The notes beneath the pieces are model-generated. The model was not told the DNA's origin. It saw only the letters and a program-made list of their open reading frames with translations, and did not search any database. 64,000 nt of DNA, from positions 12,205,501 to 12,269,500 of the forward strand of contig JASXTE010000004.1 in NCBI GenBank assembly GCA_030280995.1, written 5' to 3'. The stretch comes from Hemileia vastatrix. Lineage: Eukaryota; Basidiomycota; Pucciniomycetes; Pucciniales; Zaghouaniaceae. Below are positions 30,720-64,000 of the stretch, piece by piece (the stretch's first letter is position 1; every line of letters starts with the position of its first letter). The position numbers and the translations under genes were made by a program.

Positions 30720-31390
30720 TCATCCTCAAGGCCCCCCTTTTTCCCTCTCTTTACCTGTCTCTGACCCCCTTTTTACCCCCTTTCCCCCCTCTTTAGGTCC
30801 CTCATCACCCCCCTTCCCCTCTTTTTAGGTGCTTCAATACACCCCCCTTCCCCTCTCTTTATGTCCCTCAAAGCCCCCCCTTCACCTCTCTTTTGCCGCC
30901 TCAAACCCCCCCTTCACCTCTCTTTACCCACATCAAACCCCCCCTTTCCCTCTCTTTAGGCGCCTCAAACACCCCCCCTTCCCCCTCTACCCAATCCTTA
31001 CATCCTCCTCTACCCCCCCCCCCCCTGATTATTAACAAACGATCGTTACAGATCGTTCGTTAACAAGGAGGTGGGGGGGGGGGGGGGGTAGAGAAAGTGG
31101 TAAAGGTTTGGGAGGGGGTAAGGTGATTGGAAGGGGGGGGGGGGTTTGAGGTGCCTAAGGAGAGGGGAATGGGGGGGGGGTTTGAGGCGCCTAAGGTGAG
31201 GGGAATGGGGGGGGGGTTGAGGCGCCTAAGGTGAGGGGAATGGGGGGGATTTGAGGCAGCTAAAGAGGGGGGAATGGGGGGGGTTTGAGGCAGCTAAAGA
31301 GGGGGGAAGGAGGGTGATGAGGGACCTAAAGAGGGGGGAAAGGGGGGTATTTCAGGGGGATTTTGAGGCAGGCAAGGAGAGCATTTGAGG
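30720..31390. repeat. Giant inverted repeat of C-rich and G-rich minisatellites
   Basis: Left arm (30720-31025): tandem units of about 36 bp built from CCCCCCTTC, CCCTCTCTTTAGG and CGCCTCAAAC. Right arm (31068-31390): the reverse complement, as GGGGGGTTTGAGGCGCCTAAG and GAGGGGAATGG units. The centre at about 31030-31062 is a palindrome with arms AACAAACGATC and GATCGTTCGTT. Strand asymmetry is extreme, with G runs up to 16 (31073 on), so both a long hairpin and G-quadruplex structures are possible. Frames across it are spurious. Confidence 0.92.
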
Positions 31391-42525: not shown

Positions 42526-43429
42526 AGATCAATGCACTAATAATGAAATTAGGTTACTAAAAAAGTGCCTCTTGCCTATTTTAGTGTGTTTACACATATG
42601 GAGCATACACTGTGTTGTAATTTTTGTGTGAAGTTACTAAATTTGTTAATAATGAAGATATGCACATGGGATAAATTCAGGCAGCATAAGTTCAGTACAA
42701 ATAAGCCATTTCTAGCATAAAAAACATAAATTTTCTGAAGTGTTATTTTTAGACATTTAAGTAGCCAAATCAATTGTACTAAATAAGAAAAGTTTATCTG
42801 TCAAAACAAAATTTCAATATTATTAAATTCATAGCACATATATCCAACTTTTGAGTGATTTAAAGCCCATTTATCCATTATTTCACTATAATAATGAAAG
42901 ATCAGCTTTAAAACCACTTAAAATATTATTATCCTTATCTCTAAGGTTCTTAAGATTACCCTATCATATTCCTACCTAATATTAAGTACATAAGACCTAT
43001 AAAAGATGGATATATGCTTGTATTTAAGGTATTCTAATGGCGTATATTGTATTAAATGACTTATTTCACTTATGTATACATATTGTATACCTTTGCTTAT
43101 TGTCCCCATGTGTAATAAATGTGTTAAGCATATTAAATATGGTTGTTTCACTCATTACTAGGAATATTCAGACTGAAAATCACCAGGCCAAAAGTTAGAC
43201 GACTTGCAGTAAAGTGGTTGTTTAGTACCTGTGGTCTAACCTGAGTCAAACCTGTGTTGGAACTTTGGTGGGAAAATTTTTCATCATGACACATAGCTCA
43301 TAGCTGAATCATTAGGACCAATTTGAATTCTTCATATATTGCTTTTTGCATAATTTCCAACAGGCAATAGATCATACTTTGGTGTCTAAAAGGCATATAT
43401 TAAATTGATAATTGATATTACAAAGGTGA
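42526..43429. other. 3' flank of the Tnp2 gene, no gene seen
   Basis: AT-rich sequence. The end of the CACTA-type element could lie here, but no CACTA/CACTG terminal repeat was matched. Confidence 0.35.
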
Positions 43430-46400
43430 TTAATAGGAACCAGCTATACTACATAATGACATTATACAGACAGTATCAGATAAAACACCACCAAAGCCAC
43501 TAGGATTGAGAGTTCTTGAAGCATGTCCAATAATATCTTTATGAGTAATAATAACATTTTTAGACCATCTATTGTAGCACCAAAATGTTTTGAATCCTGC
43601 TTTGGAGAAAGGATTTTCTATTTTTTTTTCAACAGCATCATACAATCCAACTAGAATAAAGATTTGATCTGGGAACTTCTTTGACTCCCACATTCTTAAC
43701 ATCACTCCAACCTTGATGCCTTTTGATAATTTGATCTCAATATTCCCATTCCCTTGATGTTTTCAGTATAGTGAGAAGTATTTACCACCAAGGTTAAAGT
43801 ATTGGAGATCAGTAATTTTAGATGGAAGAAATTCTAAAGCACCAGTCAATTTATCTTTTTCAAAAATATTTGAAAAACACTTTTTACCATCAATCTTGTT
43901 TAAATAATCCAGCCATAAAACGTATTCTTCATGGAGTAGTTTAACAGTTGATTTTGAAGTCTTTTTTTTTTCTATATCAAAAACATCTTTCATTTTGTTT
44001 TCAAATAGATTGTCATTCATCTCAAGAAGAGATTGAAGCTGCCCAGTCAAGATAAACATTTTCATAAATGTTTTGTCCATTTCATCTAAAATAAAAAATA
44101 TTAAAGTAAATAATTATGAAGAACAAAAAGATTATAGGAGCACATACTTTTTTATTATTGTGTGAGATAGATCCCAACATTCCATTTATGCGCTCATGAG
44201 CCCAAGCTGCTGCTGATGGTTCTGGCTCAAATTGTCACAGAACTTCAGGAAAATGTTGAGCTAAGTGGACATTAGGCTTGATGTCAATATGTGGCCAAAA
44301 CTCTTTAAGACATTTCATATACTATTTTAGATGATCCTGAAGAGATACAATTTGTTCTTCATTTAATTCAAAGGAAGTTAAAAGGTTGATAATAGATACC
44401 AACAGGGAAAGACACTTTATCAACTTCTTCTCTCAATATTCAGAATTTTCTATATTCCAAACTGGGAACAAAGCAAACACGTAATAAATTTTCTTTAATA
44501 AAAGCCATTCAGCTGCCTTGAGATTTGTTCCAGTCTCCCCTACATGGTGTGGAACACGGGTTAACCATGAGGGAATGAGTTTATGCCAAATACAATTTTG
44601 AACAATCATCAATTCGCTAGGCCTTAGATTTAAATCAGAAGTTAAATAATTTGGTGCTGCAGCTGATCCCAAATTGATTTCAGGTCTAAAACGGGCAGAA
44701 AATTCCTGAAATGTGGACTCTAAAGAAAATATTTATTAGGAAAATGTTTAATTAAAAGTAATTCAGTATAACTTACTTGAACTATCTACATCAGAGCTTG
44801 ATTCTTCTTTCTCTGAGCTGGCTTCAACACCCTGCGGATTAGTACTTCTTGATGGCCCAACCATTTTTAGAGCTTTTCCTGCCTTCTCCTGCCCAATTTC
44901 ATCATAAGATAGTTTTCGTTTGAGGTTTTTTCTCAATGGCGGTATCACTACACAAACTGTACTTTTTGTCTTTATACTTTTACTTGAATCATGAGAAGTA
45001 GAGTTTGAGGGGAATGATGGTAGTTTTGAAATCTTTTTTTTTGTTAATATCTTAAATAAAGATGGATTAGAGGAGGAGCTGGAAAATGAATGGTGACTGG
45101 ATTTTGAACAGAATGAATGGTCATCCTGAAAGCCTTTTTTTGAAGATTTTTTCTTTTCTTTTTGAATGTAATCACCAGCTGCTGTAATAAGAAGGTAATT
45201 CTTACTGAAGTCTTTGGCAATACCAAGAAGTAAGCAGTGCATAAGTTCTATTCCAACAAAAGAGACTGGTTGCCAATATGGAAGTTCAAGAAGAGACAAA
45301 TATCAAACACCTTTGTTATCAAAGATCTTCTTTCTTGCTTGGGCACTGGAAGCATTTTTCCATTTAATAGCTTGAGTTCGGTGCTTGGAATCAGTGCGTG
45401 ATAGGAACTCAGCAGGAAGTTTACCAGATTTCAAATCTTCTTTAGAAATTAAGTAAAATGAGCATGGATTATTTGAGCTATAGCTGGAAAAACCAGAGAG
45501 CTTCTGGATAGCTGGTAGGTCACCAATTAAAGGAAATATTGCAGCATGTATTGGTCTTCCTTCAGGATAACGAAATGTCTTTGAAAAAAAGCATCCTTTC
45601 CACAGCTTTTGAAGTTCTTCTAAAAGAGGTGAAATAACATGATTACACTGGTCCAAACTAGGTTCATCTGGCCCAGGTGTGATTCCTGCCAAGAAAACGT
45701 GTTGCTTTTTATATTGTAAATGAGGTGGAAGATTTAGACAAGTCAAAATAAAAGATCCAAATGACACCTGACTATGACCACCAATTTTATTCCCAAAAGG
45801 ATTAAACCAATCAATATACAGGCTGAAAACAAGATTACCACTTTTATTTGTAAAATAATCTCCTTTTATATCTTTAAATTCCTTCCAGACTGAACCATCC
45901 CAAACATTGCACATTTTTCCTCGTGTATTATGTGGCCTCCTTAATGAGTAATCCAGATTGTCCTCAAACCCTGGAAGAAGAAGAAGGCGGGCTAGCCAAG
46001 ATATAAGAGATTGAGTTTTAAACTTTTGGACTGGAACTAAATCCAATTTTCAATCATCTTTTTTCTGAAACAATGGATGATTGAATTTCAACACAACATT
46101 CTTTATACAAGGTATGGCATTGAGCAAAATTTGACTACAATGGGCATGTTCAAAGTTGTATTTGTTAGCTGGTTTGAAAGGTTGATGAAAGCAATTTGGA
46201 CAACATAGAAGAGTTGTAAGCGGCGCATGTAGGTTGAGTCGGTTGAGAACAGTGTAAATGCTATGAGGAAGCTGTTTAGAATCATGCAGGAGTTTTTTGG
46301 CATCTTTATAAGTTTTAGATATTAAATTGATCTTGAAAAATTCAGCTTGAATCCGTATTTTAATTTGCCTATGTGATAAGTTTTGAACCAGAAGGCCATG

Positions 46401-46862
46401 TGCCAGATCAATAAGTATAAAGAAAATCAATGGTGATAGATGTGCAAGAGCAGGAGGAGAGAAGGCGGAGGTTTCAATTTGTAATAAATTTAAAAAGGAA
46501 GAAGAAGAACTTTTGAAATTTTTTGATTTTTTGACAATTGAAGTGATTGACTCAGAATCATCAGCATCAAGACTTAATGAGTGTTTTTGGCCAAACTAAT
46601 GAGATAAATATGTTAAAAAAAAGCAAGAAATTAAAATCATTATAAATTTAAGTAAACTTTAGGTGCTTACCTCCTCAGTAGTGGGTAAGAATACTTCATT
46701 TGAAGAGCTTGCCACAGGAAAAGAAGAAGAAGAAGATTCTTGGTGAGAGCTACTTTTGGCCAGAGATTGGTTCTCAGGAGCTGTGGATTGGTTGATCAAC
46801 TGACTTTGTTTCCTAAAAAGCAGAATTTTATCTTGATGCTTGTAATATGCAGTTGTAGACAT
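43430..46862 (-). pseudogene. CACTA/EnSpm Tnp2-family transposase, at least two in-frame stops
   Basis: N-terminal exon 46862-46659 (MSTTAYYKHQ, Ser-rich), then a zinc-finger region with CCPNCFHQPFK and CSQ in frame 46050-46600. The Tnp2 core is at 45303-46046: YIDWFNPFGNKIGG, LNLPPHLQYKKQHVFLAGI, PGPDEPSLDQ, FRYPEGRPIHAAIFPLIGDL and GFSSYSSNNPCSFY, strongly typical of basidiomycete Tnp2. It continues at 45299-45180 with LLELPYWQPVSFVGIELMHC and LLLGIAKDF. Further exons, less conserved, are at 44433-44672, 43763-44080 and 43430-43705. Stops: TGA 46050-46052 and TGA 45303-45305; the latter falls in GV*YLSLLELPYW where the family has Arg, so CGA to TGA fits. The Ser/Lys-rich insert at 44763-45180 may contain an unspliced intron. 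No terminal repeats were found. Confidence 0.85.
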
Positions 46863-47140
46863 TGAAAGCCCCTGAACTATCTCACATTCACTATTGGTGA
46901 AAGATTTTTAATTGCAACCAAGCTCAGAGCAAGTGCAAACAACATATCTAGTAGGCATGTTCAGCAGAGAGTATGTTAAAATAATAAGAAAACAATTTTT
47001 AAGTGGTGGTATTTGGACAAGATGGCATAAAAAGGAGAAAATAATGTATTCAAATTCTAAAATAATTTTACTATTCAAAATGGCTATTCAATACAACTTC
47101 ACCAGGAGGAAAATTCTAAACAAAATTTACAGGTGAAACA

Positions 47141-48240
47141 CTAAAGCAGATGGGAGAGAGAATGGATTGTAAAAGAAGGATTATGGCATATAAGTAAAAA
47201 CTGAGAAAGGCTGAGATTATCAATGTTGTAACAATTGGTGGGAAGATTACTAGGACACACAAATGTATGTGAAGCAATACTTGAGTCTTTTCTAAGAGAT
47301 ACAATATTTTTAGAAATATGTCCATGATTTTTAGATCCTCTTATCAAGTTAAGAGTAATTTGATCAACTTGTGAGTAAAAATTTAACAATTCCTCAGAGC
47401 ACCAAGATGGTTTCCTTTTCCAAAGATTTCCTTTCTTGATCTTCTTCAGTTTCAGAGTGGAAGCAAGGATTATCAAACAAAAAGAGAAGTTTGGCATCAA
47501 GACAAGCTACAGCTTTTTTCCTACAAGAAGCATGCAACTGAGAAGAAAATTATTAATAAAAATTTACAAAAAAAAATTCTCACTCACTTTCTGCCTAGTA
47601 TCCATCATTATTCTTCTATTTAGCTTAGAAACATCTAAAGATTTACTGGTTGAAATTTTTTCTCAAAGCCATCATTCCAGAATTAGAGGCACAAACTTTA
47701 TTATTTCTTCAGAATGATCTATGTGATACTGATCAAATGCCTGGTACTTATGGGCATAGCAATAGTTCTTTGTCAAGTGTTGAATGATTCTTTGATTCCA
47801 ATCTCTGTGCTCCATGTTGAATGAGAGGCATAAGCAGGGAACCCCAACATTAATGGCATCTTGATGGCAAGTATGGTAAAAAACCAGGGGAATAGTTTTT
47901 TGGCGTCCAGATGGTGATAAAGAAATTTCTTCAAGGGTGTACATATTTTCAGGTGGTGGAGATAAATTAGTAGTAACTAGTTCATTTGAAAGAGATGATA
48001 ATTCAGCAGTGGTTGGTGGAGGTGGGAAATCATCCAGCTTTTGACATTTTCCCAAGACAAGTTTCATGAAGTCAATAACTGAAATGGTGGAAGCAGCCTT
48101 AGAACTTGGAACACCAATTTGGGAAAGAATTTTGTTAAAAGCACATGTGCTCTTGAAGCCTGTGGTAGGAATCAAAGTAGAAGCTAATACAAGAGGTGAA
48201 CAAATTGCTTTTAAAAAAGAATGAAAGCCTTACATGTTGG
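47141..48240 (-). CDS. Unidentified gene remnants between Tnp2 and SNF2
   Basis: Two minus-strand frames, 47672-48175 and 47141-47500, look protein-like (varied composition, FYHTCHQDAINVGVPCLCLSF; RKPSWCSEELLNFYSQVDQ) but no family is recognised. A short in-phase linker near 47510 (VACLDAKLLFLFDNPCF) suggests one broken multi-exon gene. It could be the second gene of the Tnp2 element or a separate host gene. Splicing was not resolved. Confidence 0.35.
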
Positions 48241-48704
48241 AAGAATTTTTGAAGGTATTTTTTCTATAATCTATAAATGTGAAATGTTTCTAGATTATTA
48301 AAATGTAAGGGTATAATCACCTCCATATATATTATTTTAAAAATATGCCCCTTTGTGTAAAATTAACAAAGGAATTTAACATAAAAAAATTTCCTTTGTA
48401 TTTGTGACACAGTAGAAAATTTATAAAAAAAAATACATGGCTAAGCTACTTAATTGATAGTGGTCAAGTACACTGAAGACTTCAAAATTTTATTAAGGAA
48501 AATAATTAAAAAAATAAAGTTTAAAATTTAATGTTTCATTCAGGAAGGGCAAGACTAATAAAAAAAATAAATTTTAGTTTGATGGTGATGAGATGGTAGA
48601 GTTAATGAAACATACTTAGCAACATCTAACTTAATGGTTTTTACCTAGATCAACAATAATTAATAAGAGAGAATTTTTAAATGAATGTGAAAGAAATGGT
48701 GCTG
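48241..48704. other. No gene seen
   Basis: AT-rich spacer between the unidentified remnants and the 3' end of the SNF2 gene. Confidence 0.4.
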
Positions 48705-50947
48705 ACACGTGAAATATTTTCCTCAATAGTAGATTCAACAATATACTTGTATACATAAACTTCTTTTTCTTGGCAAATGCGATTAACACGACCAATTGCC
48801 TGCTTCTCAGAAGCTGGGTTCCAAGTTGGCTCCTAAAGAAAAAATCTTATAAATGAAGGTTCTTGCTAAAATTATAAATACTTACCATTAAGAACACATG
48901 AGATGCCATAGTGAGATTCAATCCTTCTCCACCAGCCTTTAGATTCATCAGGAGTACACCAGTCTTGATAAGTGAAAATGACTTGAGAAAATTCTTGCGT
49001 GTACTTTCATTGGTTGTGCCATCAAATAGAATGTGACATATTTCATAATCATCAAGTGCAAATGAAATCCTATTTTTTTGAAGACATATCAGTTTTAACA
49101 GCAATGAAATGGATTTAGGGATCCAGTATTAATTTCCAAAAAACCTACAACTTCAGGGTAGTAGTCCACTCTGAGAAAATAATGCACTTCACATTTGAAT
49201 CCTGTGAAATTAAGTTGTGAAGTGTTTTAATAAGGTTAACCAATGTTGGACTATCCCTCCAATTCATATGCTCAACAGATTTGATCTCTGAGTCATATGG
49301 CATTTTGGGATGAGTACAAAATCTACGCAAACTGGTCAATTTTGCTAAAGTTGATTGATCTTTTGAATGCAGATTGTCACTACTGCCAATTCCAAGAGAT
49401 TGAAAAGTTTTTGAATGCCTTTTAGAGTAAAGACAAGCAAGGTCCTCAGTAAGCTTTATGGATATTGTATTTTCATGCATAGAGGGAGTGAGCTGATCAT
49501 TAATCGTGTCTAGGCCAACTAATTGTCGGGATCGTCTGATCATTACATCACCCAAGATATCCTGGATAAAATTTTTGACCTTTGTGTAATTTCCTTCTTT
49601 TTCATGCTGTGCCACATGCTGATTCCACCCAGCAGGAGTAGTGAATGGTGCAAGTCAAAGGAACCTGAAGATGGCATACAAATCTTGACAGCTATTTTTA
49701 ATTGGTGTTCCAGTAATGCACAGCCGTTGAGAGGTCTTCAAGCAAAGTACTGCCGTTGAGGCCTTGATTCTTGATTCACAAATGTGGCTTCAAAATAAAT
49801 TGGACTTAGAAGTAAAAAAACTAAGAGTAGGAAAATTTTCAACTTACTGAGCTTCATCTAGAATAACACAAAACCAGAGAACATGATATAACCCCTTGCT
49901 TGTGTTGATATCCTCCAAGTCATTTATCACCAGATTGTAGCTAGTCAGAACTACATGTGAATCAAGCCAGATGTTGAAAGTTTTGTGTCGTCCTCTGCCA
50001 TGGTAGATAGTGATTTTGAGATTGATATCAGCTGATACATGCCAGATGATTTCATCTTTACATTGCTGAAGCAAGCTTCTAGGGACAATTATTAAGGTTG
50101 CCTTTAGTCTTGGATTGCTTGACTGTGCATCAACAAGGTGGGAAAATTGAGAAGCTTTGTCTAAGGTGTTGAAAATTAATGCAATAGTGGTAACTGTCTT
50201 TCCTAGACCCATTTCATCTGCTAGCAGAATTGATTTGGAAGGAGGATTCTGGAGGAGTTTTCGGCTCAAATAATTTTCCCAGCTATTCTCCCCTGTCTGT
50301 TGCCAAAGGTAAGTTTGGGTGCGGGATTCTTGAGAGAGCATAAAAGAAAGCGCATTCTTTTGATGTGGTAGTAGTGTTGTATTTAAATTTTGAACATTGA
50401 TTTCGTGTATAGGATGATAAGGTGCAGAGGGAAGTAAGGAATTGGTGGAGATAGATGGTAGTTGATTGCTTTGATTGAATAAATCTTGTATGGGACAGTA
50501 CAAGTGAGTTGATGGGTTATAGCCAGGTGGAAGAATAATTATGTTGTAGATTGATGCAAGTGCATGGGGGATGGTGAATAAGAAATTAGAAATACAGAAA
50601 ATCAAAATATTAATTTTTAAGGGACAGTCAGCACCCTTTTGGGGTATCAATGTAGCTTCAACCCATAAAGGGGGTTAATCCTGCCCAGGAAGCCAACCCC
50701 CAACAGGAGCAACTAACGTTTGATAACCTGGTTGGCCAAGTAGGTCATATAGGATTTGAGAATGAGTAGGGCACAGTTTACCAATGTTTATATGAGGTGA
50801 TTGTGGCCTGACCCTTATAGTATGTTTTTTATGAGAGAGATAAAGTGATTCAGGTTGCTCCACCAAACCTTGGAAGCTAAAAGAGTCAGATATGTGAGAT
50901 TGAAGCAAGCCGATGCAGACAGGAGAGGTAGAAGAAGATGATTCCAT
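48705..50947 (-). pseudogene. SNF2 helicase (RAD5/RAD16-like, no RING), one clear in-frame stop
   Basis: Multi-exon ATP-dependent DNA translocase. N-terminus MESSSSTSPVCIGLLQSHIS at 50947-50675, then frame 50650-49844: LLPHQKNALSFML, Walker A LADEMGLGKT, IIVPRSLLQQ, and Walker B ILDEAQ. Motif III CITGTPIKNSCQDLYA lies at about 49730-49690 after a short intron. Frame 49615-49145 has MIRRSRQL and IIFSEWT; 49104-48847 has GVLLMNLKAGGEGLNL, and after a further intron EPTWNPASEKQAIGRVNRIC (48833 down) and IVESTIEENI complete the helicase C domain. A TGA at 49655-49657 (FRFL*LAPF, normally Arg) interrupts it, and the 50650-50675 junction needs an intron or holds a lesion. The RING finger that RAD5 and RAD16 carry between motifs III and IV is absent; the N-terminus has a weak HIRAN-like look. 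Confidence 0.85.
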
Positions 50948-52399
50948 CTTAAATAGAAATAAAATTTGAGAGAAAAGATGATAATTCAGGAAGAAGTGGG
51001 TATTTACGCAAGATACAAAAATTTCATTTCCAAGCAGTCACATGATCTAAATAAAAACTAAATTTATCCATGTTGATTAAAGTCATGCCAAACTCTGTAG
51101 GTCCAGAAAAAATATGACAAAAAAGATCAGCAAGTGATATTAACTGTGTTAAACTTTTTACATAGATTTAAATCTCAGGAGGTACACATAAGTCATAAGA
51201 GATTTTTAAAATTAAATATTTTTTTATTCATAAATAATCTAAACAGCACTTGTAGGATTTATGAATTTAGTTTATCTCCCAAATAAAAGCATATATTTGG
51301 AAACCTTGAAAAAAAAGAATATATTGAATGTTCCACCTCTTCTAGTGGAGAAAATAATTTTTGGACTGAATAAAAGTTTCTATGGACACAGAACTACATC
51401 CATTAATTTTTATGTTTCCATTACACAGAATGGCAATGAGAAGGCAGGATCATGAATATTAGAAATATGACTTCATTTACAAAACTTCTGTTCTTACACT
51501 GTTCAATTCAATTGGTTAAATTATCTGTAGATCACAGCCAATGAGTATGGAAAATCTGATATTGTACAGAGCTTATAATTTAACTTGTGGGATCTTGTAA
51601 ATACAAACCACAGATTACACTTAATAGAGTCAAACAGGTGCTGGAAAGTTCACAAGATCATTTATTTTCATTAATATAATGAATTATTTATATAAAATAT
51701 AAAATATATACTCCTCCCCTTTATTTTTCACAAAAACATTCCAAAAATTGAAACTAAATTTTAATTCAATATATTTATCATCCAGTACATACATATGAGT
51801 AAAAATAAAAATTAAACTTATAATATTAACACAACACTTGCACAACTGGAGGGGGGGTACACTAGTGTCCAGGGGTGCACCACCCAGCCCCTTTCAGGCA
51901 GGTGCTAAGCCCCAATCAAGAATTTCAAAACGCCACTCACTTCTTTTAAGTTAAATATTATGACAAATTTCTTTATTAAAATGGACTATCATTTTTACTT
52001 AAAAATTTTCTTATTAATAAATCTTTTGAGCTTTTTCAAAAAGCAACTTCTGTTGATATAACCAATCACATATTCAAGAAATAATAACTATATATATATA
52101 CAGTAAAAACACGCAGATGGCAAGGACAATGCATTATGTAATCACAATAATTGAAACTATATATTAATCAAGCAAAAGGCTAGTGGAGATGAAATAAGAA
52201 GCATACATACAGGGTAACACATTTTCCCTCATGCATTTCTCTTTTCAATCAGCATTCTAGAAACATAATTTTTTTTTTTTCATACACCATCATCAAAATG
52301 AGAATCAAAAATTTAAAAAATGTTTTTTATACATTTCATTCATAGAAATAATGTGTATACATGCTGTTGTGTGTTTTCTTTTTTTGGGGCACCAATATT
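50948..52399. other. No gene seen; one GC-rich patch
   Basis: Mostly AT-rich. A GC-richer patch at about 51850-51915 (GGGGGGGTACACTAGTGTCC, then CAGGGGTGCACCACCC) contains CACTAGTG and could be an element end, but no matching inverted partner was found. Confidence 0.4.
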
Positions 52400-53717
52400 G
52401 CATACATGAGGCGACATGTTGCCTCATGTATGCATGTAAGTCAAATATTGCTGGGCTACTTTAAAACTGAGAAGCAAGTTAAGTTTGAAATTGCATACAT
52501 GAGGCGACATGTTGCCTCATGTATGCATTATGGGTGCTCCTATATAGAATAAATATAACAGCACTTATACATTTGTCTGTTGAAACATGCATAAATGAGG
52601 CGATATGTCGCCTGATGTATGCATGCATGTGTAATAGTATTAATAGGTCAATTTTACCTATAGTTTTTGACCCTAGCAGAGGGCCTGCATGCATATATGA
52701 GACGACATGTTGCCTCATATATGCATGCTTGTAATTGATCAATATTATATATTTATTACCTTGTATTCCACATGCATACATGAGGCAACATGTTGCCTCA
52801 TGTATGCATGTGTGTTAGCCCATGTAAATATACAAAATGACTATGTAATATATACAATTAAACATGTGAGTATTGCATACATGAGGCGACATGTCACCTC
52901 ATATATGCAATAAAACACCATCCTTGCCTTTGAACTGTATTAGTAGCCTGGCAATGACTTTACTTACCTGCATACATGAGGCAACATGTCCCCTCATGTA
53001 TGCAATATCTCTACATTTATAATTTTAAATTTTACTTAAAAGTTGCTTAAATGAGGCAACATGTCGCCTCATGTATGCAAAATTGATTAAAATGTATTAA
53101 ATTGAATACATGAGGGGACATGTCGCCTCATGTATGCAAAGTACAAGTTTTTGTAGTGGCTATTAATAACCCTGCTTACTATTTTGCATACATGAGGTGA
53201 CATGTCGCCTCATGTATTCAATTTAATACATTTTGATCAATTTAGCAAACATGAGGCAACATGTCGCCTCATGTATGCAACTTGTAAGTAAAATTTTAAA
53301 TTATAAATGTAGAGATATTGCATACATGAGGCAACATGTCACCTCATGTATTCAGGTAAGTAAATTCATTGCCAGGCTACTAATACAGTTCAAAGGCAAG
53401 GATGGTGTTTTATTGCATACATGTTTAATTGTATATATTACATAGTCATTTTGTATATTTACATGGGCTAACACACATGCATACATGAGGGGACATGTCC
53501 CCTCATGTATGCATGTGGAATACAAGGTAATAAATATAATAATATTGATCAATTTGCATACATGAGGTGACATGTCGCCTCATGTATGCAAAGTACAAGT
53601 TTTTGTAGCGGCTATTAATAACCCTGCTTACTATTTTGCATACATGAGGCAACATGTCGCCTCATGTATTCAATTTAATACATTTTGATCAATTTTGCAT
53701 ACATGAGGCGAAATGCT
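52400..53717. repeat. Palindrome array 2: 34-bp palindromes inside a giant inverted repeat
   Basis: Seventeen sites with half-site GCATACATGAGGCGACA and its reverse complement, two of them half-copies. Whole sites start at 52400, 52493, 52589, 52691, 52774, 52875, 52970, 53045, 53104, 53186, 53245, 53330, 53479, 53556 and 53638; half sites at 53415 and 53697. Spacers are mirrored about the spacer 53138-53185: each left spacer recurs reverse-complemented on the right, back to the site at 52691 and out to 53556. The central spacer (AAAGTACAAGTTTTTGTAG) then recurs directly at 53590, so a further piece was appended. Frames here are spurious. Confidence 0.95.
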
Positions 53718-53997
53718 ATACATGGTTCCAAACGTTATTTATATAGTCTCATAAAATTGCAAAAAGATGTAATATTTTTAATTTATTTGTATTTGGCGCA
53801 TTATAGTATGAGTTATGCTTTACTTTTTTACATTAGTTGCACAAATGTAATGTAACCTTCCTTAGTCATGCATTCAACTTATGCCACCATATTTTGCATT
53901 GAATTTCTTAATATAAGCTGAGAAGTCTACCTGTCTCATCCACAAACTTCTCTACTCTTAACCACCTCTTTTCAAAAACCATGAACGCAGAACACAG

Positions 53998-56544
53998 ATG
54001 TCTCAACAAGCTCAATCCACAGCCTCAACCCCCAGTCAGGCACCTCCCAGCTCACCCTCCTCTCCAGATGTAGAGCTGCCTCAACAAAAATCCAGTTCTA
54101 ATGATTCATACCATTCCCTGTTGTCAGCTCAAGATGTGGATCCTCAGGTGAATCTGACATCTGGTGAGTAATTTTTTTTATATAGAAGTTAAAACCTTTA
54201 TTAAAATCTCATTTTATACATTGTTTTTATTCATGTAGAAGCTTTAACTGTTGCTCCTCAACAACCTTCCAACACTTTGGAGTCAGGTGATGCAGTGAAC
54301 AGTGAATCTGACACATCAGGTCAGAACCAGTAACATTGTTCTTTCTACAGAAGCTGATTGTTTTTTCATAGATGACATACCTCTTGCTCAAGAAGCCAAA
54401 GAAAGAAAACCATCTTCTTCAAGCCATGTATTGAAAAATGAGGTGTATAAAATTTCTACTGAGGAGTTTATCTTGCAGTACACTAAATTTCAAACTGGTG
54501 TTGAATCACTCTTAAATGGAACTTTATTTGCGGATTCAGCTATGAAGAAGGTGAAGGATCTTTTGGATCTTGTCCAAGAGCAGAAAAATGGTCAGTTTTT
54601 TTCACTGTTTTCATTATAAGTATTTAGTAGTAATTTTTTCTTTCAGCTGTTTCTTCTGGGTCTCAGCTTCCTCCAGAGGAAAAAATGGTTATCATTAACC
54701 TCACCACTGATGATCAACCCTCCAGGCATCCAAAGAGAAAATCAGCTGAAGCAGCCCCTAACTATAATATACCTACTGATTCTGAGGATGAAACCTTCAA
54801 CCCTGCTTCAAAGAAGAAGAAACTTACAAAAAAATCACTCACCACGACAACCACCAACCCTTCCACCCAATCTTCAGCTCCTTCAACATCAAAAATTGTG
54901 TCTGATAAAGCCATCCCTACTACTGCTTCTCCAACTGCTCCTGCTCTTTCTCAACCTGTAGTTTCCACCCTTACAACTGCTTCCCCTCATCCCACTTTAC
55001 AAGCCCCAACTTCATCAACCTCAGCTCCTTTAAATGTTGCTTCCAGACCTCCACCACCAAAATCAACCCAGCCTCCAAGTGCCAAAGATACCACCGTTCT
55101 ACTCTCTAAATCCAATACCCCAGCTGTTACCACTAAACCTCTCCCCTCTTTCACTACTTCTGTCCCAGATGCTTCTCCACCTTTAGCCACTGGTCCTACT
55201 TCTATCCCACTTTCTCAGCCTGCTCCCACCCTCACACCCACCTCAGCTTCACAGACTCATTTAGGACCCTTTCCAGCTCCCCCTCTCCCTGAATCAACCT
55301 CAACTTCTACCAAAGAAAGTGACAACTACATTCCCCCCTTTGAGAGATCCTACCAGTTTATCTTTCCAGAATTCAGAGACAAAATAACTGAAAGTTGTAA
55401 AATATATGAAACAAGATTACCCAACGAGTCCTGGAGAAACTTGGCATTCTGCTCCTATGAAATCCTCAATCAAAATTCTGCTCTTAAATCTCAGTCGCCG
55501 ATGGATTTAAGAAACATTAAACTTAAATTCAAGTCATCATCTTCTACTGTTGGAGAGTGGCTCAGTGAGGTCACTACACTTGGTAAATATTTTTTCTTAT
55601 TTTTCACTTTTATTTTATTTATCTGGCTTACAAGTTCCATAGCCCCTTTGTTCCTCCAACCATCTGCCTTTGAACTTTGGAACAGAAAGGATGTTTTTGA
55701 CATGAAGATTTTGAAGCAGAGGTCTGCTAATGTTACTAGTTTATTCATCAACCTTTCTTCTCTTGCACTTCCATCCAAATCAAGTAAGCGTGATTGGGCA
55801 AGCTTAATCATGGAATCAATCCAGATATCAGGAAATACACTTGAATCATCCATAAGAGATGTTTTCAAAGAAAATGTGAATGAAGAAAGTGTTCTTAATA
55901 TTATCCAGGACATTGATAAGATGATGTACAAGCAAAAGGTGGACGTTGCCAAAATCGGCTCAGCTTCTGATGAATCATCTCTCACTATTTCCGTCAAGCA
56001 TCTGGCTAATCTATACAAAAAGATTCTTTAGATGGTTCAATGTCTGGCACTCTTAAAAGGATATTCAAATTGTGATGATTTCCTGCAAGATAGAGTAGCA
56101 TCAGGCTCATCAGTGCAAGAGAGCTCAGCTAGGGCAGGAGCAGGACCTATCCTTGCTACTTCAAGGTCAAAGTTAATTTTTTCCCACCTTGCTTACTTTT
56201 TTGCTGCTGGTGTTAGGGGACTCTTCCTGAGCTCAAATGATGCTAGAAGGAAAACTCAATCCACTTGTGGGGAGTTGATTGAGGTAACTAACCTGTTGAT
56301 GAGAAGTAGTTCACATCAGCATGATGTTTCATGGCCCAGGAACCATGCTCTCATTGTTGATACCATAGTTAACTCACTATGTCAAAAACAATTTTACATT
56401 CCTGTTTCTCTTTCTCTGGAGCAGGTCTCCAAATCTATTTTACATGACTTTATAGAGCAATGGACTATTGATATAAGTGAAGGAGAAATACCATGGATAA
56501 GAACATCTGCTAAAAGATGTAGACAACCACAACTTACTTTGTAA
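53998..56544 (+). pseudogene. Gene B: paralogue of gene A, one in-frame stop
   Basis: Exons: 53998-54163, 54239-54319, 54351-54590, 54647-55582, 55643-56544. All junctions are GT-AG and in phase, though the second intron would be only 31 bp, so it may be eroded. Start MSQQAQSTASTPSQAPPSS. The first half is Ser/Thr/Pro-rich (the 54850-55330 stretch is almost wholly S, T, P, A); PPEEKMVIINLTTDD matches gene A PPDEVIVIRDDDE. The second half has FERSYQFIFPEFRDKITES, then LFLQPSAFELWNRKDVFDMKI, matching gene A across a conserved intron, and ends with GVRGLFLSSNDARR. TAG at 56029-56031 separates the last 170 residues. No known domain or catalytic motif. It begins 280 bp after palindrome array 2. 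Confidence 0.65.
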
Positions 56545-57152
56545 TTAGATTTATTGATTTTTTCTTGAAATTCATTTATGTTAATTGTGTTGTTGAAACC
56601 ATAGTTCAAAAATATGAGATTCAGTTGGCTGCATGAAATACACTTTTTTTAAATTTTTTTAAACATTTATCACTTTGTTATTCACTTGCTGATATTTAAT
56701 GGATTTTCTTTTGATTATTTTTACATATGATGGTGTTGCAATGAAATTTTCTAAAATCTAATAATATGAAATGTTATTATGAAGTGTATGAATGTATATG
56801 AAACTTATTTTTTTGTATGTTGATTATTGGATTTGATAGCTCACAAATTATAACAGTAATTGTGTCTTTCTCTTTTCTCACATTTCTGTTCATAAATTTT
56901 TTGGATCATTTTGGTGAAGCCAAACTTATAATGCATAATGCATGAAAAATATTTTTGCTCCAAATAAAATTTTGGAATTTTTACACCTTCCTTAAATCTT
57001 ATTTAAAACAACCACCATTTACAGTCTTTGTTTCAAATTTAATTTAATTTTATAACAAGCCAATACATTAAAGATGGAACCTATTAGGGAAAGTATGTCA
57101 ATTTTATTTTTATATTTCTAATTTTCAAATATTGACAAGAAAAAAAGTTGTT
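56545..57152. other. AT-rich spacer between genes B and C
   Basis: No coding frame or repeat recognised. Confidence 0.45.
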
Positions 57153-59291
57153 ATGACTGATCCTCAGGAAGGCCCTGAGTCACCACACTCTCAATCATCT
57201 GAATCTGTAATTAGAGAATGCCTGCAGCACTAACACAGTCATCAAAGAAGCCTTTCTCAACACCCAAATCCTTCTGAACATGATTCTCAATTACACTACT
57301 ATTTTGATCCGTATATTGGTTCACCTAGTACTAGATCTGATTCTATCCCTTTTACCCAAGACTCCCCTGGCCCATCACATACTGCTTCCCCATATCCACC
57401 ACCACCAATACAACTCCCACAATACTCATTCACCCCTCAACCTCTTCCTCCTCCTCCTCCATCCCCATATCATCAATCACCTTTACCACCACCTGGTCTA
57501 CCAGGTCCACAAGACCCACCACCACCAACACCAGGTCCACCACCTCCACCACCTCCACCCCCACCAAATCCTCCCGATGTACCATCCAATCCACCTGGAC
57601 CCAGTGGTGGGGAAACTGGTGAAAATCCTAATGGTAAATAAAATTAATGTTTGGTTTTTTTATTGCAAATAATATAAACTTATAACTTATTAATTTTTTT
57701 TTTTGGTAACAGGTTAGTATTTTTAAATGATTGGTTTTTTCATATGGAAAAAGGACAGATAATCACATTTTATCTTTTTCAGAAACAGCACAACCTCTTG
57801 ATGATAGAGAATTTTCAGAATTTTTTGCTAGTGATCATGATTCTGCAGAGTGTGGTATGTTTGAAAAATTCATTATTTTTGTATATAATTTCTAATCTCT
57901 ATGTGGCCCATTTCAGGTACAGCTGGCTTGGATCCTAAGTCATATATCAAATTTCACAAGCATCATGAACAAACCTCCAAGAAGAGAAAAACTGAAGATG
58001 CTACAAAAAAGAAAATTGCCAATTTGGCTTCTAAATCACCTATCCCTTCTGCCTCTGCTCCATTGGGTCGCTCCATTATTTCTTTTGCTAGACTCCTCCT
58101 AGGAATAGACCCAGCTACTCATAAAATTCCTGATCCTCCTTCCAATGAGATAGTCAATCAATGGAGCACTTCCCAAACTGAGAGGGAGAGGATGATTAAA
58201 GCAATTCAGGATAAGCCATGTACAAAATTAACCCCAGCTCAGCGACAGTTAGTCATTAAAGTTGAAACCCAAAAACTTTTTTCAACCTTCAAAAATGCAA
58301 AATTTGTCCCAAATACCGACTATGCTTTACCTCCTGGCTAGATGATTAATACAAAGTGGAAATGTCAAGCTGAAGCACAATTGGCCCAAACTGTTATAAG
58401 CTGTTTTTGCTATCTTTGGGGATCTAGTATGGATGGAGACTGGAACTCTACCATAATCACTCACATTGTTCTTGGATAGAAGGCCTGCTATCATGGGAAG
58501 GGTTTGATAAACTTTTCAGTTTCAGATGAGTCTGTTACAGATAAAGCAGTTTTTAGCGTTCTAGAGAGGTGGATCTCTGGGAAGTCTAAAAAATTTTCTG
58601 ATATGTCAAAAGATAAATCATCTGAAACTGAAAAGCTTGAAAAGGTGAAGTTGAAAAAAGTAAAGGTTCAAATGTCTAAAAGAAGAAGAGAGGTAAGCAT
58701 GTTCATTTTATAGCTTTTCAAAAGTTTTTGAGACTAAATATAATATTTTTATATTTGCGTGATGGACGAATAAACATGGCTTCATCTTTTTTGGTTCCTG
58801 AAATGGCTGGATTATTCAAAGATATCTGTATTCACTCTGATACTGAGACAGGCCAAGATGGGAGTAGATTAAAACTTCCGATTCCTTGGAGAAGTGCAGG
58901 TTTGGTTCGATGTTTAAATGGACTTGACAGGGGGTCAATGTCCAAATCACTTGCAAATTCTAAATCTCAAACAGCCAAGGCAGCTATCAAAAAAAAGTTT
59001 GATTGAAAATTGAAGGTCCCTCAACCCTCAGGAATGGAAGGTGGTCAACCTGTTTCAGGTCCCAGCAGTTTCCCTATGGATGATATTGGTGAAGAAGCAT
59101 TTCCTGGGGATCTTCCAAAAGCCTTTTTAGATGAAACATACTACAATAATTTGTCTGTGGTAGAGCAGTCCTTTGTTGATACTGAGACAAAAGTCAATTT
59201 GGAATATTTAGCAACTGTTATAGAATTTTACTGTTTCAAAAGTCAAGCTACTTTGAATGCAGAACAACTTAAATTGTTAAAGAAAAATTAA
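57153..59291 (+). pseudogene. Gene C: proline-rich protein of unknown function, four in-frame stops
   Basis: Exon 1 57153-about 57636 (MTDPQEGPESPHSQ), then 57783-57854 and 57917-58692, joining in phase; a later exon covers about 58770-59291. Residues 60-155 are a proline-rich tract with runs of up to ten prolines. Then come a basic segment (SKKRKTEDATKKK), a helical segment (RSIISFARLLLGIDPATHK, LTPAQRQLVIKVETQKLF), and a late LPIPWRSAGLVRCLNGLDR segment. Stops: TAA 57231-57233 (in a Gln/His run), TAG 58339-58341 and TAG 58477-58479 (after PG and LG, where Trp is likely), and TGA 59004-59006; the frame resumes unchanged after each. The family is not recognised; it may be the second protein of a DNA transposon. 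It follows gene B on the same strand. Confidence 0.5.
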
Positions 59292-59651
59292 ATGCATTAC
59301 TTGTTCAAATTTATTGAAGCTATACTATATTTGGTAAAAAAACTTTCTAAATATTAACCTTATTTTTCATCATAGCTTGGAGGAAACATGTAATTCCTTT
59401 CCCTAAGTTAATAAAATTTTCTATAAGCTAAAAAAATATTTAAAAACAGAACTAGAATTAGAATGAGTATTAGAAGGGGTTTGATTGACTATTGATGATT
59501 AGTGAAAATATTTTCTTTTTTCACCTTTTTATAACTCTAAATTCAGTGTAATATTTTTTTACAACTCCTATTGTTTATTGCTATAGGTGAAACCTCACTT
59601 GAACAAATCATATAAGTTTTTTTTGAACATGGTGAACTATATCCCTGAAAC
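59292..59651. other. Spacer before the Gypsy LTR, no gene seen
   Basis: AT-rich; GAAAC at 59647-59651 would be the 3' copy of the Gypsy target duplication, but the other copy lies outside the window. Confidence 0.4.
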
Positions 59652-60826
59652 TGTCAGTGTATCTAGTATTTTAGTATGATATAATAGTATTTATTTATGG
59701 TCCTACTAATTATTGATAAATGATTTAGTGATTAAACCTCAGGGGAAGACTAATAAAATATTTATACTCAAATAAAACTCACAATACTTGGATTTAAATG
59801 TGTGCTGGTGGTTGAAAATAGATGAATATAATATAGTTATAGCTTATATAAAGATAATATCAATTTATAATGGCTTTATAATATATTTATAAATTCTAAT
59901 AATTGTATTTTAGTGTTTGTTTTAATTTTAGTAAGTGAATGATGATAAATAACTGTCAAAATCCCTCATTACTTATACCCAAATCCCCTGGAGTGCACAG
60001 ACCTTCAATCCAGATGATGTCACTGCTATCCGCGGCAATTACAGCACTGTGAGGGCCCATCACCTCCCCATGGCGTCCACTTCAAGAAGATTCAACACCC
60101 AGACCTCCAGTAAGGACCCTCCATCACAATTAATGATAGCACAGACCTATACCATAAATAGAAAATCCAGATAAAAGCAGATACCATAAAGAAACAGGTA
60201 AAATAAGCAATCCAAAAGAGATTTAATGAAACCCAAAGCATATAAAGGAAACAAATGAAGTTTCCAAGCCCCCAATAACATCCCCAAGCATCCACATTAA
60301 CCCAGAAATAACCTCCCAACCCATAAATTGTGAATATCCATCTAAGGAAGCAGATTAAGTTGTCCAAACAGAGTGTATGCGCCTGACATAGATTTCTATG
60401 CTTCTTTAGGCGTTGTGAATCCACTTATTTTGTCCATATGACCTAAAATCAGCAGAAAAACAAAGTTTATAGGCTATTAAGAGGCTAAAACCCACTTATA
60501 GACCTAAATATACATAATATACTGCATATTTCACTGAATATGAGTTTTATGTATACATTTAAGCTTATGTATGTCCATAATTACTTAAAATCACTTAAGA
60601 TAAGTCTATTATGACTCCATTAACACCTTAATAAGTATTATTAGGCTTTAGAGAGGCTATTTAAACTACTATAAGTTATATAATAGTGTAATAATTATAT
60701 ATATATGTAAAATAATCATATATATAATTGTTTTAACCTTAATTTTAAGAGATAAGCTAAATGTACTTAAGGTTATTTTATTTTAAGCATAAGAAATACT
60801 CAGTCCTAGGGATATCTAGGCTGACA
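59652..60826 (-). repeat. 3' LTR of the chromodomain Gypsy
   Basis: 1175 bp with short terminal inverted repeats TGTCAG (60826 end) and CTGACA (59652 end). The TG end lies directly after the polypurine tract. The distal two-thirds matches the truncated LTR at 36382-37075. The Trp-rich open frame at 60092-60424 lies wholly inside it and is not a gene. Confidence 0.8.
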
Positions 60827-60943: not shown

Positions 60944-63900
60944 TTATTTTGATTTAAATTTTTTCAAGAGATTTTTAAGATCAGAGATTTCATTTTCTGG
61001 AATCCACTGGTCATATTCACTTGATTTATTTTTAAATCTTAATAGATACTCAACTCCCTCTTCTTTAGTAAGGTGTCTCTTTTTAAGTATCTTTTTAATT
61101 TCTGCTTTTTCAACTATTTCTTCAGGTTGCTCTTTATACCTTCTTTATCTTCTTGGAAATAGAGCAGTATCATTAGAATGGTATGGTTTTATAAGAGATA
61201 TAGGAAATACTGGATGTTTTCTATCATATGGTGCATATAGAATAACCTCAACAGCATTGTTACCAACCTTCTTTTTCACTACAAATGGTCCAATGAATGG
61301 ATCTTTCAATTTAACATTACCATTCAAATTGAAATAGAGTGTAGAAATAAGGACTTCATCACCCTCTTTGAACATTTGTTCTTTATGGGCTTTATCCCAT
61401 CTTTTCTTCTCATACTCAAATGCCTTATTTATACATTCTTGAGCATTTTTTCTGCATAATTCTTGCATTTGAAGACAAGACTTAGTACCTGGATGGATAT
61501 CCAATCTAGGTAATTTATTAAGAGTTTTAGCAGGGGTATTAGGTACATAACCCAACCATAACTCAAATGGCTTTTTGCCAGTGACAGAATGTATTGTACT
61601 ATTGTATGCAAATTCTAAACCTGGGATAAGGGTTACCCAATCATGCGTGAATTTGTCATTGTCTTTAAAGTTAAGACCAAAAGCACAATATCTTCTTATC
61701 ATATCTTCTAAAGTTTGTATCATTCTTTCTGCTAGTCCATCAGTTTGTGGATGGTGTGCTGTAGAAAGTTTTAATTGACACCCTGAAACATCCATAAGTG
61801 ATGTCCAGAACTCAGAAGTAAATTTAGGATCTCTGTCAGAAACTATTGCTTTGGGGAAAGCTGCTATATTTAAAATTTGTGTCCACCATAAAAAAGCTAA
61901 GTCCTTTGCAGAAACCTCTTTATGAGTAGGAATAAATTTACACATTTTTGTAAATCTATCAACAACTACCCAGCAGGAGTTATAACTCTTATGTCCTGCT
62001 ATTGGCAAACCTGTTACAAAGCCCATGTTAACTATTTCCCATGGAGCTTTGGGTTGCTCAATTTGTTGTAATAAACCAGCTCTTTTGCCTGTTAATCTTT
62101 TAGATTTTTGACAAGAATCACACGTCTCAACATATTTTTGAACATCATCAGACATGTTAATCCACCAAGCTGTGTTTTTTACTCTAGTTAATGTTTTATT
62201 GAAGTCAAAATGACCTGCTAATATATCATCATGACATATACTTAACGTTAACTCCTTCATTGAAGGGGGAATTACAATTACATGACTTAATTTTTTCCTG
62301 TAATATATAAAACTATCCTCAATGGAAAATTTTCCTTTTTCTAATGCCTCTTTATACTTATTTGGTAATGTTTTTATTAAAACATTCATTGAAGCATTAG
62401 ATGGATCATTTAATATTGTAGTGAGTTTACTCAAGTCAGGATCTGAATCTTAATTATCAAGAATTGATTGCATAAATTCATCCTCAAGATCTACAATATA
62501 AATGCCATAAATGTTAATAATATCTGACTCAGGAACATAAGCAGGATTATCATCATTATTAGGCAGAGGTACTCTAGATAACAGATCTACATTAGAGTGC
62601 AAGGTTCCTGCTCTATTTGTAATAGTCATCCGGCCTCTGTATTCTTGTACAGCTAATTTCCATCTAAACATGTGTCTATTAGGAGTTTTCATGTTTAAGA
62701 GTGACTTAACTGCACTACAGTCAGTTATTAACTCAAATTTTTGGTCTTCAAGGTAATAATGTAGCTTCTCAAGAGCCCATAATACTGTTAAACATTCAAG
62801 TTGAGTAGCACCATATTTCAATTCACTACTTCACAGAGTACGTGAAATATAGCAGATTACTACTTCTGACATTCTCTCTTCAATAAGTTGTTTTTGATGC
62901 AAAGCAGCACCCAGACCAATAAAACTTGCATCTGTATATAATACAAAAGGTAATTGGAAATCTGGTAATCCCAAGATAGGACCTGTCATCAAACATTCTT
63001 TCAACTTATCAAAAGCCTGTTGTCTTTCATTATTCCAAATGAAAGCTTTTGATTTCTTTATCAGTGTGGTCAATGGTGCAGCAATTAATTGGTAGTTTTT
63101 TATATATTGTCTATAATAACCACACATGCCAAGAAAAGATTGTACATCCTTTACGTTTCGAGGAATGCCAATATTCTTTATTGCAGCCACTTTATTTTGG
63201 TCTACACATATTTGTAAGCCAGATACAATATGACCAAGCACTTTTAAAGATTCAAACCCAAATTTACATTTTTTTAATGCAAGGGTAATTTTTATTTCAT
63301 CCATTTTCTGAAATACCTTCTTTAAATGGATTAAGTGTTCATCATATGTTTTAGAGAACACTATGATGTCATCAATGTATACAATTAACCATCCTTCAAT
63401 CATTTCATTATGGAATGTTATATACATTAACTTCTGAAATACTTATGGAGCATTTTTTGGTCCAAATGGCATTCTGACATATTTATAAATTCCCATATGT
63501 GTTGTTATTAACAAAAAGTTCTGTGAATTCTTTTCAACAGGAATTTGATGGTACCCTTAATTTCCATCTAGGCAACTTATATACTTAGCACCTTTAATGG
63601 TAGCATGTATAGAGGCAATCCTTGGCAAGGGATAAATATCATCTACTGTAAATTTATTTAATGCTCTATAATCACCACACAGTCTTGCTTTATCTTGTTC
63701 ATAAGAAATAAGCACTGGTGATATTACACAATATTTTGGTGTAGTTTCAACCTTCTCAATAATGTTCATTTTTAATAACATCTTAATATTATCCTCTATG
63801 TCTTTCCTCTTCATTGGTGAAGAAGGGTATGGTTTCTTTTTAAGACTAGCAGGAATATTATCCATATCACAGGCTAAACTAATTTTCATCTCATGGTCTT

Positions 63901-64000
63901 TTAAAAGGCCAAGTTCATTTGTACCATGTGCAAAAGCCATTGGAAATGCTTTAATTAAGTCCAAAATATTATTTTTCTCAGCTTCACTTATCTGAGTGCC
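60944..64000 (-). pseudogene. Gypsy pol polyprotein with C-terminal chromodomain, five in-frame stops
   Basis: Reading from 64000 down: RT start (KPYPSSPMKRKDIEDNIKM, RLCGDYRALNKFTV), RT catalytic YIDDIIVFS at about 63370, then FLGMCGYYRQYIKNY and RNase H (LYTDASFIGLGAALHQ, ELITDCSAVKSLLN). The integrase follows: a zinc-binding H-H-C-C segment (HDDILAGHF to CDSCQKSK), then DDE residues in VVVDRFTKM, VSDRDPKF and HPQTDGLAERMIQ. After FIGPFVVKKKVG comes a chromodomain (EKAEIKKILKKRH, VEYLLRFKNKSSEYDQWIPE) ending at TAA 60944-60946. Chromodomains steer integration to particular chromatin. Stops: TAA 63557-63559, TAA 63443-63445, TGA 62831-62833, TAA 62450-62452, TAA 61145-61147. Reading continues in the same frame after each, so the copy is young but dead. 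Confidence 0.93.

Follow-up and report, generated by a model that had tools for sequence, protein, structure and literature searches.

A mirrored array of 36-bp palindromes in the interior of a CACTA/EnSpm-type transposon of Hemileia vastatrix

Foldback transposons such as FB and Galileo end in long inverted repeats that are made up of subrepeats. VANDAL elements belong to a superfamily other than CACTA/EnSpm, namely MULE. For rust fungi, EnSpm families with CAC..GTG ends and 3-bp duplications have been described (Kojima 2025, PMC12730594); in the available sections of that paper no internal palindrome array is reported for the rust EnSpm/CACTA elements, and the term 'palindrom' occurs once, for the borders of the TET gene. 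For plant CACTA elements it was proposed that a TNPA-like protein binds subterminal repeats (PMC2613891, accessible excerpts), and the anti-silencing VANC proteins are described, in the corresponding excerpts, as acting on noncoding binding-motif repeats of VANDAL elements (PMC5735166, PMC10398659). For inverted duplications formed by fold-back, a single-copy centre between inverted homologies is given as the signature in the part of PMC3907307 that was accessible. An array comparable to the one reported here was not found among the open-licence papers listed, as judged by title and start of abstract.

The array is located in a window, by which the whole analysed stretch of 64,000 nucleotides is meant (H. 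vastatrix assembly GCA_030280995.1, contig JASXTE010000004.1, positions 12,205,501 to 12,269,500 of the forward strand). It extends from 52399 to 53711, without an assigned strand, and is composed of 15 whole and two partial 36-bp units. Taken as a whole, we consider it rather probable that this is an internal cis-acting array which originated by fold-back copying and whose palindromes would be bound by a dimer. By a pattern search allowing up to three mismatches all 15 whole units were located within 52399-53672, while 100 shuffles yielded none each; the partial units are found at 53414-53423 and 53696-53711. The first-pass annotation had counted 15 whole and two half copies of a 34-bp palindrome. 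This count was confirmed, and the unit length was corrected to 36 bp on the basis of the symmetrised consensus TGCATACATGAGGCGACATGTCGCCTCATGTATGCA, which is a perfect palindrome. When the consensus and five window units were folded, each was predicted to form a hairpin, with energies ranging from -8.4 to -18.7 kcal/mol. The best scores in the window apart from the whole units (at 52204 and at the half unit 53696) were above the mean of 20 random windows and below their highest maximum, so that no decayed older units were detected elsewhere in the window. No result was obtained with the palindrome core in viral and in bacterial/archaeal contigs, with the array in plasmids and phages, or in searches of RNA families and tRNAs. 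A CRISPR-like array appears improbable, as the units are palindromes inside a eukaryotic transposon.

The spacers between the units follow the order 0+ 1+ 2+ 3+ 4+ 5+ 6+ 7+ 8+ 9+ 8- 7- 6- 5- 4- 9+ 8-, in which minus signs denote inverted copies. A young mirror is formed by a left arm with the spacers 4+ 5+ 6+ 7+ 8+ (52726-53138, plus strand), an unduplicated centre consisting of spacer 9 (53139-53184, no strand, with the palindromes 53103-53138 and 53185-53220 on either side) and a right arm with the spacers 8- 7- 6- 5- 4- (53185-53554, minus strand), which includes the partial unit 53414-53423. A direct repeat of the centre with the spacers 9+ 8- and a half unit at its end follows on the plus strand (53555-53711). 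The two arms are 92% complementary over 244 nt (52900-53143 and 53180-53423) and 97% complementary over 120 nt (52748-52867 and 53419-53538), the mirrored spacer pairs are identical at 58/59, 54/54, 40/41, 37/39 and 22/23 positions (95-100%), and the repeat of the centre matches at 91% (53080-53263 and 53532-53715). Both the spacers mirrored around a central spacer and the direct repeat of the centre at the right end, as originally noticed by the model reader, were borne out by these comparisons. The left border segment (spacer 0, 52339-52398, no strand) is a diverged inverted copy of spacer 2 (z 7.9, 0/200 shuffles; 0/1000 in the comparison of consensus sequences), with a score that is barely the best among all 120-bp pieces of the window (40.5 vs 38.5).

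It is nearly certain in our judgement that the array belongs to the interior of a CACTA/EnSpm transposon which is 17 kb long and dispersed through the genome. The CACTA/EnSpm-type copy carrying the array occupies 43181-59652 of the window (no strand assigned), and about 670 bp of its right end, including the right terminal inverted repeat (TIR), are missing or displaced; the left TIR is located at 43181-43226 on the plus strand and reads CACCAGG(T/C)CAAAAGTTAGACGACTT.... In order to map the ends of the element, five other loci were fetched with 35 kb each. The sharp left end, at 43181 in the window, was present in four of these five long copies with about 95% identity, the exception being C348, which does not reach it intact. 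Four long copies extend past the point matching 59652 to a shared right end, which C34b does not reach. The start CACCAGG(T/C).. is common to all five sequences shown, the window among them, and ..ACCTGGTG closes all four copies that reach the right end, which the window copy lacks; the element thus ends in CACCAGGTCAAAAGTTAGACGACTT... and its inverse (CACCAG..CTGGTG). Copy C502 has a length of 17,038 bp, the first 25 bp of its left TIR are identical to the right end with similarity extending to about 46 bp, and its right TIR lies 673 bp past the point matching 59652. Target site duplications (TSDs) of 3 bp (ctg, tac, ttg) were found in three of the three copies fetched with both ends, and the long copies sit in different flanking DNA. 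Ends of the CAC..GTG type, a 3-bp TSD and a Transposase_21 domain together identify a CACTA/EnSpm element. Since other copies continue beyond the point where the window copy stops, the latter is truncated or interrupted at 59652. A Ty3 element is located at 61145-63964, to the right of this stop.

Within C502 the distance from the array to the left end is 9.2 kb and that to the right end 6.7 kb. The array therefore differs from Foldback transposons, which have their inverted repeats at the termini: unlike those of FB and Galileo, the inverted repeat is internal here, and its subrepeats are palindromes. In the terminal 1 kb at both ends of copy C502 no repeated 8- or 10-mers were found above the level of shuffles, and the left end of the window copy contains a single T-rich pair and a single inverted pair of 13 nt. 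Subterminal repeats of the CACTA/EnSpm kind are accordingly not seen in C502; they are a feature described for plant elements and are not taken here as defining for fungal ones. According to the excerpted text of PMC2613891, the soybean element Tgmt* resembles the element described here in its large size (20.5 kb vs 17 kb), its 3-bp TSD and its stem-loop repeats; its repeats are, however, subterminal (within 159 and 732 bp of the TIRs) with motifs of at most 17 bp, whereas the palindromes here are central and 36 bp long. The array could be a transposition site, namely a TNPA-type binding region that is required to bring the two ends of the element together, moved inward and has no regulatory or anti-silencing role. 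The stem-loops formed by the plant subterminal repeats and the lack of repeats in the terminal 1 kb at each end of C502 agree with such a shift, but the plant repeats in that excerpt are no farther than 159 and 732 bp from the ends and the array is several kilobases away from both, and we regard this explanation as improbable.

The frames assigned to the transposase are located at 44763-46430 on the minus strand. A Transposase_21 (tnp2) domain, PF02992, was recognised within 45303-46046 (Pfam E 2.1e-17), and the frames adjoining this domain were assigned to the transposase by position only. Fragments of an SNF2-family gene follow on the same strand at 49145-51037, with an ATPase domain at 49844-50650 (Pfam E 6e-24) and a weakly matching remainder at 49145-49615 (Pfam E 0.0012). 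The nearest and only significant solved structure for this fragment was RAD5 (phmmer against the PDB, E 2.9e-08). This RAD5-like gene inside a CACTA transposon may be a repair or remodelling gene captured from the host. A TET domain was absent among the searched frames of the element, in contrast to the TET-positive EnSpm families of rusts, which carry a TET gene according to the available sections of PMC12730594. To the right of the array, orphan open reading frames on the plus strand occupy 53998-59291, the first ATG being about 290 bp from the array. Pfam searches gave nothing at E 0.001 for the two large rightward frames and only sub-cut-off matches for six smaller ones, no protein homologues were found for 56032-56544 and for residues 215-448 of the 54685 frame, and the structure prediction of 56032-56541 was uninformative (pLDDT 39). 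From this arrangement the array appears to lie between the 5' sides of a leftward block (transposase, SNF2) and a rightward block of frames. When changes at third and other codon positions were compared between copies, the ratio exceeded 1 in 7 of 19 frames with 1.88 as the highest value. The sampled copies thus seem to evolve mostly neutrally, as expected for mostly dead copies, and since there is no consistent excess at third positions, any selection must have operated in the source elements.

The genome comprises 747.6 Mb in 791 contigs. A search with the array returned at least 242 matching pieces, of which several fall on one locus and some are mirror matches (40 of 663 candidates scored), and the 24-bp core, with CpG wobble allowed, occurred 2,453 times in the genome in comparison to 0 for the reversed control. 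The 50 core places listed first group into 11 clusters, which span 21.7 Mb of a single contig, and extrapolation from these 11 clusters gives a rough estimate of 380-540 arrays genome-wide. For the comparison of arrays, the window and stretches of about 4 kb from 20 other loci were used, giving 21 arrays. Homology to the window flanks the array on both sides, up to the edges of the stretch, at 19 of the 20 loci; at L024 it is confined to the left side. The mirrored order, continuing after spacer 9 to 5- and 4-, was present in 17 of the 21 arrays; the young mirror is absent from L023, L025 and L026, which form one subfamily, and L024 breaks off right behind 8-. The first description had raised the point whether other arrays exist and always carry mirrored spacers: other arrays do exist, and the mirrored order is frequent among them, not universal. 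As this order is common to 17 of the 21 copies, the inversion is ancestral, and the young mirror is inherited and arose before the spread of the family, not at the window locus.

An assembly artefact or independent MITE insertions would be other ways to account for the pattern, and nothing beyond its strangeness speaks in favour of them. Misassembly was ruled out by the same order at 17 of 21 loci, with the long copies lying in different flanks and the arms differing in detail. Independent insertion of MITEs is refuted because the spacers are mirrored, shared by the copies and alike in order, and inspection by eye showed no direct target duplications next to the units. The likelihood of such explanations is therefore negligible.

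The number of whole units per array ranges from 9 to 15 at the threshold used. A duplication of the module 7+ U 7+ was found in nine of the 21 arrays, with a weakly matching first copy in three of them. Between the spacers 5 and 6 of the left arm just 5 bp remain (5+ ATGCA 6+) in 12 of the 21 arrays, and palindromes have been lost fairly often; judged by eye, the short stubs left by these losses are compatible with deletions between short repeats, CATGT for example.

Copying by fold-back or template switching quite probably gave rise to the mirrors. A strand, either nascent or resected, would snap back at one palindrome onto a neighbouring palindrome and copy the array backwards, and the spacer between the two palindromes would be left as an unduplicated loop. 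Because the palindrome is homologous to every unit in both orientations, the end of a snapped-back strand could prime such reverse copying. At least two events of this kind are proposed, an old one centred on spacer 1 and a younger one centred on spacer 9. The earlier argument that mirrored spacers need inverted copying, by fold-back or template switching, gains support from the single-copy centre flanked by inverted homology. An unduplicated centre between inverted homology is shared with the fold-back inverted duplications of PMC3907307, but the events in the accessible part of that paper are chromosome-scale and human, whereas here modules of 60 bp within a transposon were duplicated in at least two events with the palindrome serving as homology. 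In the two palindromes next to the centre, the alleles of the outer halves are mirror images of each other (A3 in 20/20 and T34 in 20/20). Moreover, the unit between 4- and 9+ has T7 in 13 of 16 cases, like the unit between spacers 3 and 4, and G30 in 14 of 16, where the latter unit has A30 in 21/21. Such a hybrid of halves places this switch inside a palindrome; in the window, L009 and L013 the 4-/9+ unit has C7 and the hybrid is not seen.

Traces of an older mirror were found in subfamily B (three loci), in which the array extends to the left by four further spacers, two of them present in L025. The scores of the inverted matches b2~4-, b3~3- and b4~2- were reached by 0, 0 and 2 of 1000 shuffles, respectively, while b1~5- was not significant (99/1000). 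The sum of the four spacer pairs has a z of 6.8, and this assignment ranks second of 384 possible ones. Taken together, the pairs 1~6-, 2~5- and 3~4- do not support a third mirror centred on the unit between the spacers 3 and 4; their respective scores were reached by 7, 659 and 131 of 1000 shuffles. L023, L025 and L026 have extra units on the left and another right array border (TATTGTTCAGAATG...), and L025 is without exactly two spacer-plus-unit modules held by L023 and L026.

Over the older mirror the palindrome is conserved in comparison to the spacers. In three old-mirror spacer pairs 33 of 151 aligned bases differ (22%), and with gaps included there are 118 identities in 192 columns, i.e. 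38% of the columns are non-identical, whereas the palindromes have 7 differences at 256 non-CpG sites and no gaps. The comparison of substitution rates proposed along with the first-pass annotation was also performed between copies, and transversion divergence was 3.2% in spacers (569 sites) and 1.5% in units (448 non-CpG sites; site permutation p 0.0005, the sites within an array not being independent). The suggestion that the palindromes are better conserved than the spacers consequently holds for the older mirror of related copies and fails for the mirror pairs of the window. There, the four whole pairs of units have 17 differences at 144 sites compared to 4 substitutions at 215 sites in the mirrored spacers 4-8. 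Twelve of the 17 differences fall on four CpG positions, leaving 5 differences at 128 sites outside CpG. The palindromes of the young mirror in the window are, as judged from these counts, more diverged than its spacers, mostly at CpG, and the CpG positions of the window palindromes thus decay fast.

All 21 arrays have the T7/A30 allele in the unit between the spacers 3 and 4, the old-mirror partner of this unit has it as well, and A3 and T34 are likewise fixed (20/20 each). Fixed position-specific alleles argue against free homogenisation along the array, which would erase alleles of the T7/A30 type, and selection is favoured for the rest of the unit. The pattern suggests that the near-identity of the units is better explained by selection in source elements than by homogenisation. 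Pervasive conversion between the arms is not general: spacers 4, 5, 7 and 8 differ between the mirror partners within a copy at least as much as between copies (4.6/3.8, 7.8/4.4, 14.7/9.5 and 1.7/1.7% within/between, matches below 0.55 of the full score being dropped). Spacer 6 has the reversed trend (2.3/5.9%), its inverted copy being present in three arrays only (the window, L009 and L011). Near-identical arms do occur in some copies, with 0/59 differences for spacer 5 in the window and 1/59 in both L010 and L011. The right arm of the window reads 6- TGCAT 5-, which is the mirror image of the left-arm deletion ATGCA. The arms do therefore copy each other, and this deletion is a trace of later arm-to-arm copying.

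These findings bear on the possibility that the array is a selfish structural repeat, i.e. a functionless palindrome whose hairpins multiply, rearrange and correct the units, the conservation being no more than the outcome of copying among units. Its modules of spacer plus unit were indeed duplicated and lost, as for 7+ U 7+, and the mirrored deletion of the window attests copying between arms. Complementary double changes in the arms of the units are also in excess over all copies, with 57 observed and 37.2 expected under independence; they could stem from hairpin copying or may reflect subfamily structure. On the other hand, unit exchange is rare, as alleles are fixed by position over the copies and one of them, T7/A30, is common to both arms of the old mirror. 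The arms of individual window units are no more alike than arms across units (27/270 vs 382/3780), so that hairpin correction within the unit left no sign in the window and at most the mild excess seen over all copies. We consider a purely selfish repeat unlikely.

The window has 31.9% GC and CpG at 0.29 of expectation. In the copies of the element, C was changed in 140/420 cases in the context TCG, 37/175 in CCG, 51/257 in ACG and 30/265 in GCG, corresponding to C-to-T rates at CpG of 33%, 21%, 20% and 11%, respectively. Within the palindrome, C changes at GTCG (90 and 75 of 244) were about five times those at GGCG (18 and 16); the 244 units are those directly between two recognised spacers with a score above 0.6, partial units and units adjoining unrecognised spacers being left out. 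This TCG-biased decay looks like TCG-type RIP, and RIP-like targeting of TCG is described for Microbotryum in the excerpted text of PMC10502011. Folded as single-stranded DNA, 52726-53554 reaches -377.7 kcal/mol compared to -90.1 (sd 5.6) for 20 shuffles. The near-complete fold-back of this 829-nt stretch and the strong mutation of the CpG positions of the unit, GTCG most of all, would suit a hairpin or small-RNA source, or a trap for host repeat mutation, in which the inverted repeat leads to double-stranded RNA or silencing. The TCG bias is, however, element-wide, as the TCG and GCG counts above show, and a transposon would not conserve a silencing trap, which makes an explanation of this kind very improbable.

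With about even confidence we propose that the array serves as a platform to which a dimeric protein binds. Each 36-bp palindrome would constitute a two-fold symmetric site for a putative dimer, probably encoded by the element, and the bound dimer may act on the promoters or on the silencing state of both gene blocks, following the model of TNPA on subterminal repeats of plant CACTA elements or of VANC on VANDAL repeats. Dimer sites are the simplest reading of a perfect 36-bp palindrome that is better kept than its spacers and present in 9-15 copies between gene blocks. The position between the frame blocks is consistent with this platform, as are the ends of C502, which are without repeats where plant CACTA elements keep theirs. 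A binding protein was not identified, the rightward frames being without a recognisable domain and the two pieces searched being without homologues. As far as the accessible text of PMC5735166 goes, VANDAL elements and the array described here both have noncoding repeats whose number varies between copies of the family; the VANDAL repeats are tandem, with inverted or palindromic forms unmentioned in a term search of that text, whereas the array is built of mirrored palindromes. It is conceivable, though doubtful, that the palindromes both recruit a dimer encoded by the element against silencing by the host and seed the fold-back that rebuilds and enlarges the array, so that a regulatory site would multiply itself.

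The related arrays, probably some hundreds, constitute a natural series of ordered inverted duplications that makes it possible to distinguish between copying by fold-back, exchange between arms and selection on the palindrome. Should a protein of the element bind the palindromes, this would show that CACTA elements can hold recognition repeats internally, and the array would be the fungal counterpart of repeats that serve anti-silencing in plant transposons.

The window is rich in eukaryotic transposon sequences, including Ty1/copia, Ty3, DDE_Tnp_4 (Harbinger-type) and Transposase_21 as well as a TET-like gene. When 735 relatives of the copia protein were ranked, proteins without an organism name came highest; those of the rust Austropuccinia psidii, with about 40% identity, were the best placed of the named ones, and plants and others ranked lower. 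A TET-like 2OG-Fe(II) oxygenase is encoded at 32659-33276 (PF20515, E 6.8e-28) near a DDE_Tnp_4 transposase, and this neighbourhood resembles the TET-carrying rust transposons in the available sections of PMC12730594. Additionally, a second mirrored pair of arrays was observed at 30775-31347, between the DDE_Tnp_4 frame (29749-30207) and the TET-like gene. It consists of about 6.5 tandem and then about 6.2 inverted copies of a C-rich unit of 32-33 bp, centred on a small palindrome (TTAACAAACGATC..GATCGTTCGTTAA), and inverted arrays in the interior may be more widespread among the transposons of this genome.
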